Origin: Pedococcus aerophilus
Lineage (GTDB): Bacteria; Actinomycetota; Actinomycetes; Actinomycetales; Dermatophilaceae
DNA length: 64,000 nucleotides
NCBI RefSeq assembly: GCF_039532215.1
Contig: NZ_BAAARN010000003.1
Location: 62,001-126,000 of the forward strand
Direction of reading: 5' to 3'
A program made the translations under genes and the position numbers. Below, piece by piece: positions 1 through 4,355 of the stretch. The notes below the pieces were generated by a model. That model ran no database searches. It worked only from the letters and a program-made list of their open reading frames with translations, and was not told the DNA's origin. How positions within the stretch are numbered: the stretch's first letter is position 1; each line of letters opens with the position of its first letter.

Positions 1-300
1 AGCGAGTCGCAGCACCACCCCGCCGACGCGGACGCGCCCGACTCCTCGCGCGGCACTACCGGCCCGCTCGACGGCACCGGTCCGGACGAGCTGCGTCCGC
101 TCGCGCTGAGCAGTGCGACCGTCACCCTGTGGGGCACCGTCGGCTGGCTCGTGGCGCTCGGCATCATCCTCGCCGTCCCCTCGCTGCACGAGGGCGAGCG
201 CCACTGGTGGCCCTGGACCTGCGTGACCGCGATCGTGCTCGGACTGCTCGGGTTCAGCTACGTGCGCCGCGGCCGCGGCAACGCCGCCGGCGCCGAGTAG
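1..300 (+). CDS. DUF2530 family small membrane protein (5' end outside window)
   Basis: The reading frame is open from base 1 and stops at TAG 298-300, so the start codon lies upstream. The visible 99 residues are an acidic, flexible N-terminal part followed by two hydrophobic segments (about residues 38-60 and 75-90) joined by a loop rich in His and Trp (HWWPW), ending in YVRRGRG. This two-helix plan with LWGT near the first helix and GLLGFSYVRR after the second matches actinobacterial DUF2530 proteins. Function is unknown; it is presumably an inner-membrane protein. The family assignment is by recalled pattern, not by a search. Confidence 0.75.
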   Translation, partial: SESQHHPADADAPDSSRGTTGPLDGTGPDELRPLALSSATVTLWGTVGWLVALGIILAVPSLHEGERHWWPWTCVTAIVLGLLGFSYVRRGRGNAAGAE

Positions 301-352
301 CCACCACCCCGCGCGCCCCGCGCCATACCCCCTCGCCTGCGCTGCTCTCCGC

Positions 353-420
353 GCAAAACGGTGGTTGCTCGACGAAACGGCGGACATGGGGCCCGTTTCG
401 TCGAGCAACCACCGTTTCGC
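353..420. repeat. Long hairpin palindrome, copy 1
   Basis: Two 28-base arms (353-380 and 393-420) are reverse complements with a single mismatch, around a 12-base loop. The arm core is GGTGGTTGCTCGACGAAACG. A near-identical hairpin lies at 1543-1610, on the other side of the AbiEi/DUF559 gene. Copy 1 sits between two convergent stops (300 and 461), so it could also terminate transcription, but it has no T-tract. The word GAGGTCAG follows at 422-429 and also follows copy 2 (1631-1638, 1641-1648). Confidence 0.9.
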
Positions 421-460
421 TGAGGTCAGATCGCCGAGACGTATGCCGCGAGCGGGCTGC

Positions 461-1381
461 TCACGCGGCTCGACGCAGCAGCACGGCCCGGACTCGGGCC
501 AGGACGCGCTCCGGGTGGCTCAGGTCGTCCCAGGTGAGGCGAACCACCTCGTAGCCCAGCTCGCGGAGCCGGTCCTCACGCCGCTTCTCTGCCACGACGA
601 CCTCGGCACCATCAGCGCCCTTGTACTTCACCGCTCCGTCGAACTCGATGACGACGCGACCCGCGACCAGGAAGTCCACGCGTGCGACGAAGCTGCCCCT
701 CTGGTCGCACACGACCACCTGGGATGCGACCGGCAGCCCCAGGGCCGTGAGAACGAGTCGGGTCCTGCTCTCCCCCGGCGACTCCGACGCCCCGTCGATG
801 TGGGCCAGGGCGGCCCTCAGCCGCGCCTTCCCGCGCAGACCACGACGCAGACGAGAGGCGGCCTCCGCGAGATCTGCTTCGGTGCACCGCCCATCGTGGA
901 CCGCCGCATCCCCGGCCACGACTCCAGCTTCGACGCTCACCGATGCCACGGCGACGACCGCATCCGCGACGGCCATCACGGCCAGACCCTCCACCTCGAC
1001 GCGGTCGACGAGGGCACGCAGCGGCATCACCCTGACGCCCCCTCCGGTGGTGGTCTCCTGCACGTCCGCCGCCAGGACGACGAGGTCCCGATCCACGTGC
1101 CACAGCGGAAGTCGGTGAAGCGCCAGGGCGGAGTGGTGGCTGGCCATCTCGTCGACGCCGCGAGAGCGCATGGCCGCGGCCACCGTCAGTCGATAGCGCT
1201 CGTCCCGGTCGGCGGCACTCCACGCAGCCGCTCCGATGAAGGCTCCACGACGAACCCTGACCAGGTCTCCGCCGACGACCCAGCGGCTCACCTCGTCGGG
1301 CGGGATCCCCAAGCGGGTCAGCTGGCGAGAGCCCAGCACACCGCCCTGCGCAGTCATCAGGGCACTGGCTCGCGAGTCCAT
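461..1381 (-). CDS. AbiEi-type N-terminal domain with C-terminal DUF559 (Vsr-like) nuclease domain
   Basis: 306 residues from ATG 1381, starting MDSRASALMTAQGG; the frame is open further upstream but that part looks non-coding. Residues 1-60 resemble the winged-helix domain of type IV AbiEi antitoxins (LGSRQLTRLGI, then RVRRGAF). Residues about 215-306 fit DUF559, a Vsr/restriction-like nuclease fold: SESRTRL, VDFLVAGRVVIEFDGAVKYKG with candidate metal-binding Asp/Glu, then EKRREDRLRELGYEVVRLTW. No AbiEii toxin lies beside it. It reads toward the DUF2530 gene and is bracketed by two matching hairpins. No clear Shine-Dalgarno sequence is seen. Such proteins are common and often multicopy in actinobacteria; the cellular role is unknown. 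Confidence 0.85.
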   Translation of the reverse strand: MDSRASALMTAQGGVLGSRQLTRLGIPPDEVSRWVVGGDLVRVRRGAFIGAAAWSAADRDERYRLTVAAAMRSRGVDEMASHHSALALHRLPLWHVDRDLVVLAADVQETTTGGGVRVMPLRALVDRVEVEGLAVMAVADAVVAVASVSVEAGVVAGDAAVHDGRCTEADLAEAASRLRRGLRGKARLRAALAHIDGASESPGESRTRLVLTALGLPVASQVVVCDQRGSFVARVDFLVAGRVVIEFDGAVKYKGADGAEVVVAEKRREDRLRELGYEVVRLTWDDLSHPERVLARVRAVLLRRAA

Positions 1382-1542
1382 GACGGCGAGAGTGGTCAGG
1401 TCGTCACTGCCCAGCCAGCCTGCGACGCCAGACCTGTGGATCGTCGACGTCGCCGAGCCGGGTTGTGGACAGGCCGTCAGGCCCGGGCCCTCGGCCGCCG
1501 GGGCCGACGCGCCATACCGAGGTCCGCAAGACCCATGCCCCA

Positions 1543-1610
1543 GCAAAACGGTGGTTGCTCGACGAAACGGGCTCCATGTGCGCCGTCTTGTCGAGCAACC
1601 ACCGTTTTGC
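1543..1610. repeat. Long hairpin palindrome, copy 2
   Basis: The left arm (1543-1570) is identical over 28 bases to the left arm of copy 1. The right arm (1583-1610) pairs with it with two mismatches, around a 12-base loop whose sequence differs from that of copy 1. Loop divergence with conserved arms suggests that the stem is what is maintained. It lies between the DUF3027 stop and the start of the AbiEi/DUF559 gene, both read leftward. Confidence 0.9.
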
Positions 1611-1644
1611 GTGGGGAAAGCCGCGCAGGCGAGGTCAGGCGAGG

Positions 1645-2388
1645 TCAGACGAGGTCGTAGCTCAGCTCGTCGACGATGGGTTCGCCGGTGTGGACGTGCT
1701 CGGCGGGTTCGGCGTCGACCTCGGAGTGGGCGCCGCAGCCGTGGTCAAGACTCACGACGCGACCGTCGGAAGGCGACCAGGCGTTGGCGCACACGCCGAA
1801 AAAAGAGCGGAGGGCACCTGCCATCGGGAGGAAGTACCCGCAGGACGAGCAGGGCGACGACGCCTTCTCGGCGACCTCGGCGTGGGGGCCGTTCTCGCCC
1901 TCGTACCAGCGCTGGGCCGCGGCCTCGCGACCCTCGGCGGACAGCACGCGCTTGCGGCCGAGCCCGAGCTCGTACGTCGCGAGCTCGTCGACCTCCTCGT
2001 CGCCCGTGGCCTCGAACCCGGCCTCGAGCAGCGGGTCGTCCTCCTTGTAGGGCAGGACGTCGCCGGCACCGAGGTCGCCGGGGGCGATGCGGTCGGCGTA
2101 CGGCAGCCATTCGGGCGACAGCAGCGCGCCGTCACCGGGGACGAGGTTGGTCTCGCAGACCGTGGCGACCTTGCCGCGCGGCACGCGGGCGACGGTGATC
2201 GCCCAGCGCCAGCCGGGGTAGGCCCGCGCCGTGCACGCGAAGTAGTGAGTGCCGAGGCGCTCGTCGTCGAGCTCCATGCCGAGGTGGTCACCGACGGTGC
2301 CGGCCTCCGCGATGGACTCGGCGGCCTCGCGGGCCAGGTCGACGGCGCCCTCGAGCACCGGGTCCTTCTTGGGGGCGGCCATGCTCAC
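1645..2388 (-). CDS. DUF3027 family protein
   Basis: 247 residues from GTG 2388, whose GTGA overlaps the stop of the cold-shock gene; ATG 2382 is an alternative start. It begins with an acidic helical region (LEGAVDLAREAAESIAEAG), continues with FACTARAYPGWRWAITVARVPR, and has a zinc-ribbon-like region near residue 180 (SSPCSSCGYFLPM, then FGVCAN). These are hallmarks of DUF3027, a conserved actinobacterial family of unknown function, usually beside a cold-shock gene as here. The overlap implies translational coupling. The two CxxC-like parts suggest metal binding; that is inference. Confidence 0.85.
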   Translation of the reverse strand: MSMAAPKKDPVLEGAVDLAREAAESIAEAGTVGDHLGMELDDERLGTHYFACTARAYPGWRWAITVARVPRGKVATVCETNLVPGDGALLSPEWLPYADRIAPGDLGAGDVLPYKEDDPLLEAGFEATGDEEVDELATYELGLGRKRVLSAEGREAAAQRWYEGENGPHAEVAEKASSPCSSCGYFLPMAGALRSFFGVCANAWSPSDGRVVSLDHGCGAHSEVDAEPAEHVHTGEPIVDELSYDLV

Positions 2389-2780
2389 GGCTCCAGCTGG
2401 TCGGCGAGAAAGCGCAGGACCGCGGCGACCTTGGTGCCGTGCTCCTTGTCGAGGCGGCGGCCCCGACGCAGGGAGTTGCTGGTGCTGTCGAGCAGCTTGA
2501 TGGCGTCCTCGACGAGCGGCGCGAGGTCCTCGGGGGACTTGCGGTTCTGCTCACGCTTGCCGGCGGTGACGCTCGGCGCCGGCTCGAGCAGGGACACCTG
2601 GAGCGCCTGCGTCCCGCGACGCCCCTCGGCCACGCTGAACTCGACGCGGACACCGCCCTTGAGCGTGCTCGCGCCGTCGGGCAGGGCGTTCGCGTGGAGG
2701 AACACGTCGCTGCCGTCGTCGCCGGAGATGAAGCCGAAGCCCTTCTCCGCGTCGTACCACTTGACCTTGCCAGTGGGCAC
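2385..2780 (-). CDS. Cold-shock domain protein with C-terminal extension
   Basis: 131 residues from ATG 2780. Residues 1-65 are a cold-shock domain with both RNA-binding motifs recognisable: GKVKWYDAEKGFGFI and DVFLHANAL. It should bind single-stranded RNA or DNA in the cytoplasm and act as a nucleic-acid chaperone. Unlike 67-residue CspA, it carries a basic helical tail of about 60 residues (KREQNRKSPEDLAPLVEDAI, then RFLADQLEP), a form found in actinobacteria next to DUF3027. It overlaps that gene by four bases. It is divergent from the MFS gene at 2928, so 2781-2927 must hold promoters for both. Confidence 0.92.
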   Translation of the reverse strand: MPTGKVKWYDAEKGFGFISGDDGSDVFLHANALPDGASTLKGGVRVEFSVAEGRRGTQALQVSLLEPAPSVTAGKREQNRKSPEDLAPLVEDAIKLLDSTSNSLRRGRRLDKEHGTKVAAVLRFLADQLEP

Positions 2781-2927
2781 TGGTCCACCTCTACATCGAA
2801 AGTTTGGGTGCGCTCTGTGCGCATCGCAAGGCTATCGGGTGGTGCCAAATCCTTTCCCGGTATGCCGCGCGGTCGCCTCCCGGAAAACCGGTTCAGGACT
2901 GTCGGTGGGCTGGGGGAGGATGTCCGG

Positions 2928-4355
2928 GTGAGTGAGTCCGAGCAGTCCCCGTCGACCCCGAAGCAGGGCGTGCGCCAGTTCTGGGGCGACCTGTCGACCG
3001 AGGGTCGCTGGCTGCTGTCGACGGTGGCGGTCCAGACGCTGGGCCGCGGTCTGACCCTGCCGTTCACCGTGATCTACCTCAACGAGGTCCGCGGCATCTC
3101 CCTCGACCTCGCCGGCGCGCTGATGGCGTTCATCGCCGTGGTCGCGCTCGCCGTGACGGGGCCCGGCGGTGCGCTGACGGACAAGGTCGGCGCGCGCCGG
3201 ATGCTGCTGTTCGCCACGAGCGCCCAGCTCGTGGGCTGCGTCATCCTGGCCTTCGCCACGACGCCGTGGACGGTGGCGCTGGCCTTCATGTTCCTGGGGT
3301 TCAACTTCGGCGTGTCCTGGCCGGCGTTCAACGCCCTCGTGGCAGCCGTGACGACCGGTCCTGCGCGTCAGCAGTACTTCGGCATCAACTTCGCCCTGGT
3401 CAACCTCGGCATCGGCCTCGGTGGTGTCATCGGCGGGCTCTACGCCGACGTCGACAACCCGTCGTCCTTCACGGTGATCTTCCTGGCCGACGCCGCGAGC
3501 ATGCTCGTGCCCATCGCCCTGCTGCTGGGGCCGCTGCGCCACGTCCACGGCCGGGCCGAGAAGCCCGAGGGCACCGAGGGTGCCGGCGGCTCGTACCTCG
3601 AGATCGTCCGGCAGCCCGCAGTCGTCTGGATGACCGTGCTCACCTTCCTCGGCACGTTCGTGGGGTACGGCCAGATGGAGGCCGGGTTCCCTGCGTTCGC
3701 CCGCCAGGTCAGCGAGGTGCCGACGGAGGTCATCGGCTTCGCCTTCGCGCTCAACACCGCGGTGATCGTGGGTCTGCAGTTCGCCGTCCTGCACCGCATC
3801 ACCGGTCGGCGCCGCACCCGCGTGCTGCTCGTCATGGCGGGACTGTGGGCGGCGGCCTGGGTCATGCTCGGGCTCACCCGTTTCGCCCCGGGCACCCTCG
3901 TCGCCGCCGGCGGGGTGCTGGCGTTCCACGCGCTCTTCGCGCTCGGCGAGACCCTGCTCCAGCCGACCATCCCTGCCATCACCAACGACATGGCCCCGGA
4001 CCACCTTCGCGGCCGGTACAACGCCGTCAGCGCGGGAGCGTTCCAGTCCGGCACCATCCTCGGCCCGGTCGTGGCCGGGTTCATGCTCAACCACCGCTGG
4101 TCGACGGCGTTCATCGCCATGCTCGTGGTCATCTGTGGGGCAATGGCCCTGCTGGCCCTCGTCGTCGAGCGCCGGATCCCCGCAGGGGTCAACGGCCTCG
4201 AGGCCGAGCCGGTCGTCCCGAGCGCCGAGCCGGCCGGCGCGGGCCCCGGCGACGGCGTGGCCAGCGCGGCTGAGACCAAGGCCACTGAGACCAAGGCCGC
4301 TGAGACCAGGGGGGCCGAGTCACCGGTGGTCGGGTCCCGCGCCGCCCGGTCGTAG
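2928..4355 (+). CDS. MFS transporter
   Basis: 475 residues from GTG 2928, chosen because GGGGGAGGA at 2912-2920 is a good ribosome-binding site and MSESEQSPS leads straight into the first helix; the longer open frame runs into the cold-shock promoter region. About twelve hydrophobic segments are present, and the MFS loop 2-3 signature appears as GGALTDKVGARRML. The C-terminus is a low-complexity tail (ETKATETKAAETRGAES). It is a proton-coupled permease or exporter of unknown substrate in the inner membrane. The stop abuts the convergent epimerase stop with no gap. Confidence 0.9.
   Translation: MSESEQSPSTPKQGVRQFWGDLSTEGRWLLSTVAVQTLGRGLTLPFTVIYLNEVRGISLDLAGALMAFIAVVALAVTGPGGALTDKVGARRMLLFATSAQLVGCVILAFATTPWTVALAFMFLGFNFGVSWPAFNALVAAVTTGPARQQYFGINFALVNLGIGLGGVIGGLYADVDNPSSFTVIFLADAASMLVPIALLLGPLRHVHGRAEKPEGTEGAGGSYLEIVRQPAVVWMTVLTFLGTFVGYGQMEAGFPAFARQVSEVPTEVIGFAFALNTAVIVGLQFAVLHRITGRRRTRVLLVMAGLWAAAWVMLGLTRFAPGTLVAAGGVLAFHALFALGETLLQPTIPAITNDMAPDHLRGRYNAVSAGAFQSGTILGPVVAGFMLNHRWSTAFIAMLVVICGAMALLALVVERRIPAGVNGLEAEPVVPSAEPAGAGPGDGVASAAETKATETKAAETRGAESPVVGSRAARS

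Follow-up and report, generated by a model that had tools for sequence, protein, structure and literature searches.

A single gene for a predicted nuclease, standing between two closely matching long hairpins in a 64,000-nt stretch of the Pedococcus aerophilus genome (the window), raises the question whether gene and hairpins belong together and, if so, as what kind of unit. Each hairpin is 68 nt long, with arms of 28 nt and a loop of 12 nt (Table 1), and the predicted single-stranded DNA folding energies of -33.1 and -31.7 kcal/mol correspond to z = -9.95 and -9.25 against shuffled sequence. A 25-mer from the arm, allowing at most 3 mismatches, has four copies in the window and none in 100 shuffles. 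With both loops turned to the same orientation their sequences are GCCCCATGTCCG and GCTCCATGTGCG, which makes the hairpins inverted copies of one another; the alignment score of the pair is 68.5 inverted vs. 43 direct. The first-pass annotation of this DNA had described both hairpins, including left arms identical over 28 bases and the 12-nt loops, and all of this is confirmed. It had also placed GAGGTCAG after both of them, whereas this sequence begins 1 nt after the first hairpin and 20 nt after the second; owing to these unequal distances there is no shared junction, and GAGGTCAG was rejected as one. Outside the hairpins, two further segments form an imperfect inverted repeat that may be due to chance. 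The unit is bordered by the gene of a small membrane-type protein, putatively named from its own sequence, and by a DUF3027 gene, which a cold-shock gene adjoins on the side far from the nuclease gene. Screening of window positions 1-3000 against Rfam returned microRNA matches alone, far below threshold.

Table 1. Positions and strands of the features discussed (window coordinates; in the last row, coordinates within the fetched regions named)
Feature	Position	Strand	Remark
Small membrane-type protein gene, 3' end	1-300	+	Other conserved neighbour of the landing site; outside the unit
Outer imperfect inverted repeat, left part	331-350		20 nt, 90% complementary to 1615-1634
Palindrome copy, 3' side of nuclease gene	353-420		This genome's own dialect
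Nuclease gene: predicted AbiEi-type fold (residues 1-196) and Vsr-like/DUF559 nuclease domain (201-306)	461-1381	-	Open reading frame open to 1546
Palindrome copy, 5' side of nuclease gene	1543-1610		Same dialect; inverted relative to 353-420
Outer imperfect inverted repeat, right part	1615-1634		Pairs with 331-350, outside the hairpins
DUF3027 gene	1645-2388	-	Conserved neighbour marking the landing site; outside the unit
GTATGCCG...CGGCATAC hairpin	L169:7208-7252, L170:1699-1739, L171:7134-7184, L174:2969-3010, L177:6016-6055

Homologues of the nuclease start near the ATG at 1381, so the gene probably comprises positions 461-1381 (306 amino acids), and the second hairpin lies about 160 nt upstream of it. 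The Pfam matches of the protein, to AbiEi_4 (E 6.3e-5), DUF559 (1.3e-3) and MTES_1575 (3.6e-3), are all below the curated cut-off; in a whole-genome scan DUF559 comes slightly above it (20.9 bits vs. 20.6). At E 0.01, MTES_1575 is found in 22 and DUF559 in 14 of 40 family members. NCBIfam gave no match to the protein, and the AbiEi models of PADLOC match its N-terminal part (E 3.9e-10). In an AlphaFold model (pLDDT 94.8, pTM 0.90), residues 1-196 are predicted to resemble the AbiEi antitoxin 6y8q (Z 10.2, rmsd 5.8 over 180 residues) and residues 201-306 the catalytic domain of the homing endonuclease I-Bth0305I (Z 9.1, rmsd 3.2 over 97 residues). For the modelled nuclease domain, NGO0050 (Z 8.8) is tied with I-Bth0305I, these two appearing as the nearest solved structures, and the likeness to E. 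coli Vsr (1vsr, Z 6.9) is middling. Foldseek alone gave E < 0.001 for AbiEi only, with I-Bth0305I at E 0.012, and a fold missing from the list of structure matches was never counted as evidence. The predicted likeness to a homing-family fold is by itself no proof of a homing function. Pfam matches and predicted structure together bear out the two domains proposed in the first-pass annotation, which had also remarked, again rightly, that the gene lacks an AbiEii toxin partner: its neighbours are the DUF3027 and membrane-type protein genes, no AbiEii-like (DUF1814) toxin gene lies beside it, and no methyltransferase was found among the adjacent genes seen. The protein had no match at E 1e-5 among plasmid and phage records, so that no vector was found.

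Residues E204, E246, D248 and K252 are kept in all of 57 loci, and D236 in 54 of them, these loci having been fetched without use of the peptide EFDGAVKY; the two residues after EFDG vary among them, with E, D and K constant. Conservation makes the five residues candidates for catalysis. An argument from invariance of the whole peptide was dropped, since EFDGAVKY was itself a pattern by which loci had been fetched. The dN/dS values of the gene, 0.17-0.29 in six comparisons (with dS > 1 in four of the six), indicate that the protein is under purifying selection.

The association of gene and palindromes extends far beyond this locus. Of 148 genomes sampled from the class, 110 contain a gene of the family, as do 61 of 70 genera. 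Among 102 actinobacterial loci (114 given, 105 after gene search and removal of duplicates, 102 with both flanks), 67 have matched 5' and 3' flank blocks, as against 5 of 604 permuted pairs, which leaves 35 loci lacking a matched pair at the threshold; when either orientation is accepted, the figures are 74 of 102 and 12 of 401, and 28 loci remain without a pair. Within the same loci, for the 60 with long flanks, the flanks of the gene match in 39 cases, vs. 3 of 120 for stretches taken elsewhere in the locus, and long hairpins (score at least 18) are found in 44 of 120 flank stretches vs. 3 of 240 control stretches. Hairpins of score at least 14 stand on both sides of the gene at 32 of the 102 loci, on one side at 45 and on neither at 25. 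A held-out set from other families of the class, with no locus in common with the first set (criterion ≥90% identity over ≥300 nt), gave matched pairs at 14 of 24 loci vs. 9 of 552 permuted pairs, four of the 28 loci having been lost because the motif search did not place the gene. The bracketing copies at 72 loci are inverted in 27 cases, direct in 33 and tied in 12, and consistent terminal inverted repeats were therefore rejected as a description of the unit.

Palindrome and protein change together. For 63 loci with a pair score of at least 20, a palindrome common to two loci, in the strict sense that both cross comparisons succeed, was seen in none of 1744 pairs with less than 60% protein identity, in 5 of 39 pairs at 60-70% and in 20 of 23 pairs above 70%; a looser test, for which one cross comparison is enough, gave 25 of 1744, 10 of 39 and 23 of 23 in the same classes. 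By these comparisons, palindromes often bracket the gene, are private in sequence to it, and change with the protein. The link between palindrome and nuclease, a suspicion of the first-pass annotation, is in this way strongly supported across the class, by the flank matching in all three comparisons and by the co-change, as it is within the genus by the counts and dialect assignments that follow.

Within the genus, we used 11 genomes, G000 (that of the window, 4.02 Mb) and G138 to G147. The palindrome of the window has nine copies in its own genome, two in the window and seven solo, and none in 185 other genomes of the family when at most 2 mismatches were allowed in the 28 arm bases. The exact two-arm pattern likewise had no match in GTDB r220 contigs, a search that may omit records close to that of the window. 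This empty search suggested an oddity of one genome, an idea rejected since the palindromes of relatives differ in sequence: in congeners where the gene has a close relative, palindromes of other sequence and the same plan adjoin that relative. An alignment of 17 such palindromes has the majority outer sequence GCAAAACGGNGGTTGC, with C2, CGG7-9, G12 and T13 invariant, and from these 17 a covariance model (R1) was built. With matches counted on both strands, R1 found 32 in G000, 14 in G138, 39 in G140, 54 in G141, 58 in G142, 14 in G143 and 74 in G147, the seven genomes in which the gene has a close relative, and 0 in G139, 0 in G145, 2 in G146 and 8 in G144, in which it has none; since R1 was trained on gene-bearing genomes and 150 candidates were scored per genome, these counts favour the gene-bearing genomes and are incomplete. 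Part of the R1 matches, 58 loci, was studied further. Excluding the two flanking copies of the window, 51 of 56 dispersed hairpins were matched to the flanking pair of their own genome among five dialect groups, where 20000 label shuffles reached at most 24; the five misassigned hairpins include degraded copies that resemble another dialect. The dispersed hairpins thus track the gene, and are not spread everywhere irrespective of DUF559 genes, the outcome that the first-pass annotation had named as speaking against its own suspicion. In a common orientation, six of the nine copies of the window's family share the loop consensus GCNCCATGTNCG, and since the loops lie outside the arms this speaks for copying.

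The palindromes themselves have an internal order. Direct repeats inside the arms occur at a spacing of 19 nt in 19 of 64 arms, 20 nt in 13 of 64 and 21 nt in 4 of 60, where about 0.45, 0.5 and 0.3 are expected; smaller excesses are seen at 18 nt (4 vs. 0.85) and 10 nt (7 vs. 1.25), other spacings being near chance. A distance of 19-21 nt corresponds to two helical turns. Two stem positions in the window's family vary without compensation in the opposite arm, most others being kept. Arm repeats and uncompensated variation both agree better with double-stranded sites for protein binding than with a structure that serves pairing only. In three Cellulosimicrobium loci (L139, L146, L151) the flanks carry tandem repeats of the CGAGGTAGAACC type, about 21 nt apart, each perhaps equivalent to a single half-site of the palindromes.

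The DUF3027 gene, present in all 11 genus genomes, allows the landing site to be compared. The palindrome-gene-palindrome block is present at this site in five genomes and absent from six, which is not the fully conserved synteny that the first-pass annotation would have taken as an objection to a mobile unit. It is directly missing in G138, G140, G145 and G146; G138 and G140 have it at a second site instead, with a palindrome on both sides. The proposal of a nuclease-driven element is partly supported by the link of palindrome and gene and by this presence and absence of the block, and fails in one particular, as empty sites were supposed to keep one hairpin and the four directly empty ones carry none. 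In G144 and G139 (L171, L176) about 1.2 kb of other sequence, which reads like a putative helix-turn-helix gene, lies between the DUF3027 and membrane-type protein genes, so the landing site accepts various inserts. A further hairpin, with GTATGCCG...CGGCATAC arms, recurs close to the DUF3027 gene in 5 of the 13 regions fetched (Table 1).

Between the window and G142, the nuclease gene has a dS of 1.20, and the DUF3027 and cold-shock genes have 0.12 and 0.13 (MFS rows were excluded from the comparison for poor alignment). A dS ten-fold that of its neighbours is best read as a replacement of the nuclease gene at the landing site, which most probably took place in one lineage and probably involved the cassette. 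G142 and G143 have a dialect in common, although the neighbouring genes place G142 closer to the window's genome than to G143, and the change of dialect is thus most simply put on the lineage of the window. Solo loci were compared by blastn, tblastx being uninformative at this G+C content. At the orthologous sites C and D (both flanks aligned) and A (one flank aligned), G000 has its own dialect and G142 the other; at site I, G000 retains a palindrome of the G142 kind. Site F carries own dialects in G000, G147 and G141 and palindromes of other families in G142, G144 and G139, and no palindrome was detected there in the remaining five genomes of the genus. Such patterns would arise if older palindromes were overwritten, or if favoured sites received insertions repeatedly. 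The intergenic DNA around the solo sites has diverged, for which reason neither a clean insertion edge nor a target-site duplication was readable there. Palindromes of other families, perhaps each with its own gene, occupy the same intergenic sites at F (L269, L271, L311) and at B, G and H (L276, L321, L267), examples being GTTGGAAGC...GCTTCCAAC in G139 and CGAAGTC..GACTTCG in G146.

The genome of the window contains three paralogues of the gene (C3:54275, C5:324808 and C3:259877), each with its own, different pair of palindromes, and five more DUF559-like matches, four of them below the Pfam cut-off, with at most one hairpin each. The palindrome of paralogue C3:54275 (family 2), searched with at most 2 mismatches, has 7 sites in G000, 14 in G138, 2 in G139, 16 in G140, 0 in G141, 7 in G142, 3 in G143, 1 in G144, 20 in G145 and 0 in both G146 and G147; the reversed control pattern was found once in G139, once in G141 and in no other genome of the genus. 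Wherever about 1.2 kb separates two family-2 sites, the intervening DNA holds a gene of the subfamily (6 of 6: G000, where the gene is the query, G142, G143, G138 and twice G145), and both solo sites checked, in G138 and G145, are free of a gene. Dispersal of the palindromes is thus seen for two families in the genus. An exception that counts against the link of palindrome and gene is G140, where 16 family-2-like palindromes (L377-L392) are free of any AbiEi/DUF559 gene to a distance of about 1.8 kb; they carry AACCTTTGCTAGCAAAGG, many are compound, of about 80-115 nt with the centre GGACAGGTTGCAACCTGTCC, and they are of the same dialect as the G145 unit L397. In G138 and in G145, six times each (L400 and L402 included), family-2 palindromes are paired exactly 60 nt apart, three times the 20-nt spacing within the arms and reminiscent of REPINs. 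A third palindrome family, from a different genus, is found in 3 of 16 genomes, with 3, 2 and 1 copies.

Our reading, to which we give a probability of roughly 0.6, is that the locus in the window belongs to a large class of two-part units in Actinobacteria, each made of a solitary AbiEi-Vsr gene and private palindromes that bracket it and have solo copies elsewhere, gene and palindromes maintaining each other through binding, cutting and copying. AbiEi and Rv2827c are reported to bind paired 23-bp inverted repeats, by which AbiEi-type proteins regulate their own expression (PMC7319586), and this length is close to that of the arms in the window. For VsrA, a Vsr-like DUF559 protein, a DNA-damage response is described in Caulobacter cells without a methyltransferase (PMC12907096). 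By analogy with these two precedents, the protein of the window may bind and cut its palindrome. Two monomers would each occupy one of the inverted arms, in the manner of AbiEi on its repeats, and the nuclease domain would cut at or near the palindrome; repair of the break or recombination would then copy the palindrome, and at times the whole palindrome-gene-palindrome block, to other sites. Gene and palindromes would thereby keep each other in the genome, and the unit, whose enzyme is of a kind unrelated to the RAYTs, would work in the way of RAYT/REP or of a homing gene. We infer binding, cutting and spread by the unit from this combination of features, and the private flanking palindromes point to a genetic element, of a selfish or homing-like kind, that has not been described. 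A more specific version, which we hold tentatively and at slightly less than an even chance, is that the AbiEi-Vsr protein cuts the palindromes that it recognises, that repair then installs the protein's own dialect both at older palindromes and at new positions between genes, and that a newly arrived gene in this way rewrites the scattered ones.

The serious rival is a host regulator, or a terminator or chromosome-organising factor, with the palindromes as coevolving operators and nothing that moves, a reading we consider unlikely without thinking it far-fetched. It draws on the autoregulation of AbiEi-type proteins through inverted repeats (PMC7319586), on the position of the 5'-side palindromes, which are placed as operators could be, on the purifying selection of the gene and on the occurrence of palindromes at orthologous intergenic sites in several genomes. 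The gene context of the 58 palindromes, taken from a crude gene caller, divides between both sides: 23 lie between genes on one strand and 27 between convergent genes, positions that a regulator or terminator might use, yet merely 5 lie between divergent genes (one is within a called gene and two have no gene called on one side). A regulator also leaves the copy on the 3' side of the gene unexplained, as well as the presence or absence of the entire block at the DUF3027 site. Moreover, the gene has ten times the dS of its neighbours and the dispersed palindromes nevertheless match the gene now present, and the loop consensus shared by most copies of the window's family points to copying.

We regard as improbable, more so than the regulator, that the protein is a restriction- or toxin-like nuclease for which its own palindromes are self-marks, sinks or restraints, its loss being punished as in addiction or defence. 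The response to VsrA in methyltransferase-free Caulobacter (PMC12907096) and the PADLOC matches to AbiEi agree with such a role; no obvious partner gene is adjacent, however, and by itself the idea leaves the dispersed solo copies unaccounted for. Mobilisation of the palindromes by another enzyme, a RAYT or an IS200/IS605 transposase, with the nuclease gene as passenger, is less probable again by a wide step. Flanking and dispersed palindromes are indeed described as the hallmark of RAYT/REP (PMC2817692), but Y1_Tnp was found in none of the 11 genus genomes by a search that was positive in 5 of 14 control genomes, and the private palindrome follows the sequence of the nuclease gene, so that RAYT/IS200 as the driver in this genus is largely refuted. 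Ordinary bidirectional terminators that flank the gene by chance, suggested by the strength of the hairpins and the many that lie between convergent genes, are refuted as a full explanation by the gene-specific flank matching at 67 of 102 loci, the 19-21-nt repeats inside the arms and the stems of the window's family, kept in sequence beyond mere pairing, and we give them next to no credit, termination as a side effect being possible.

In spite of its presence in 110 of 148 genomes, the gene family is known to Pfam merely as an AbiEi-like antitoxin domain and DUF559. Its putative DNA target can be read from each genome, often as one private palindrome per gene, so that specificity is directly testable and perhaps decodable. 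The unit of gene and private palindromes would be a second, unrelated case of an enzyme tied to dispersed palindromes; through it one can ask if RAYT/REP is a useful arrangement or a selfish one, and it would account for a class of long palindromes found between genes in these genomes. If the version with homing palindromes is true, the RAYT/REP lifestyle has been invented independently, by an unrelated enzyme and through much of Actinobacteria.

Comparison with known systems places the unit near RAYT/REP and REPIN, where, as described in the sources cited (PMC2817692, PMC3116915), the gene also stands between two palindromes, dispersed cognates track it in abundance and coevolve with it, and the sequences are genome-specific and mostly intergenic. 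The comparison with RAYTs made in the first-pass annotation holds as an analogy of genomic logic, and not for the enzyme: a RAYT is a Y1 (HUH, IS200/IS605-kind) transposase, the protein here a predicted AbiEi part joined to a Vsr-like nuclease. The palindromes here are also longer, about 45-115 nt across loci, and have the 19-21-nt internal repeats; each genome has few copies, at most about 37 by R1; and the GTAG or CGTC tag reported for one end of REP palindromes (PMC3733652) is absent, the ends in the window's family being GCAAAA, ACGAAA, GGGAAA and similar. With I-Bth0305I and free-standing homing genes the unit shares the predicted nuclease fold, and a selfish nuclease gene beside its own sites would behave in this manner; it differs in having two whole palindromes in place of a split site, in its chromosomal intergenic sites and in the AbiEi part. 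Copying into a cut cognate site, as in homing, may lie behind the probable replacement at one site and the dialect differences at orthologous ones, though no clean edges were readable. The AbiEi antitoxins (of the AbiE type IV toxin-antitoxin system, and Rv2827c) resemble the predicted fold of residues 1-196, whereas here no AbiEii gene is adjacent, a nuclease domain is added and palindromes occur on both sides and dispersed. Vsr and DUF559 nucleases of the very-short-patch type have in common with it the nuclease fold, the MTES_1575/DUF559 matches in Pfam and the conserved residues of active-site type; the extra AbiEi part, the linked palindromes and the lack of a methyltransferase among the adjacent genes seen set the unit apart. 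Insertion sequences with terminal inverted repeats differ in that the bracketing copies here are not consistently inverted (27 of 72). A link between DUF559/AbiEi genes and palindromes is not described among the literature matches listed, from a search largely confined to sources other than subscription journals and preprints. Since enzyme and palindromes do not agree with the definition of RAYT/REP, and since each of the other families tested, the bare Vsr/DUF559 fold excepted, fails or leaves open a defining feature, we rate the unit as a new category of system that works like a REPtron.
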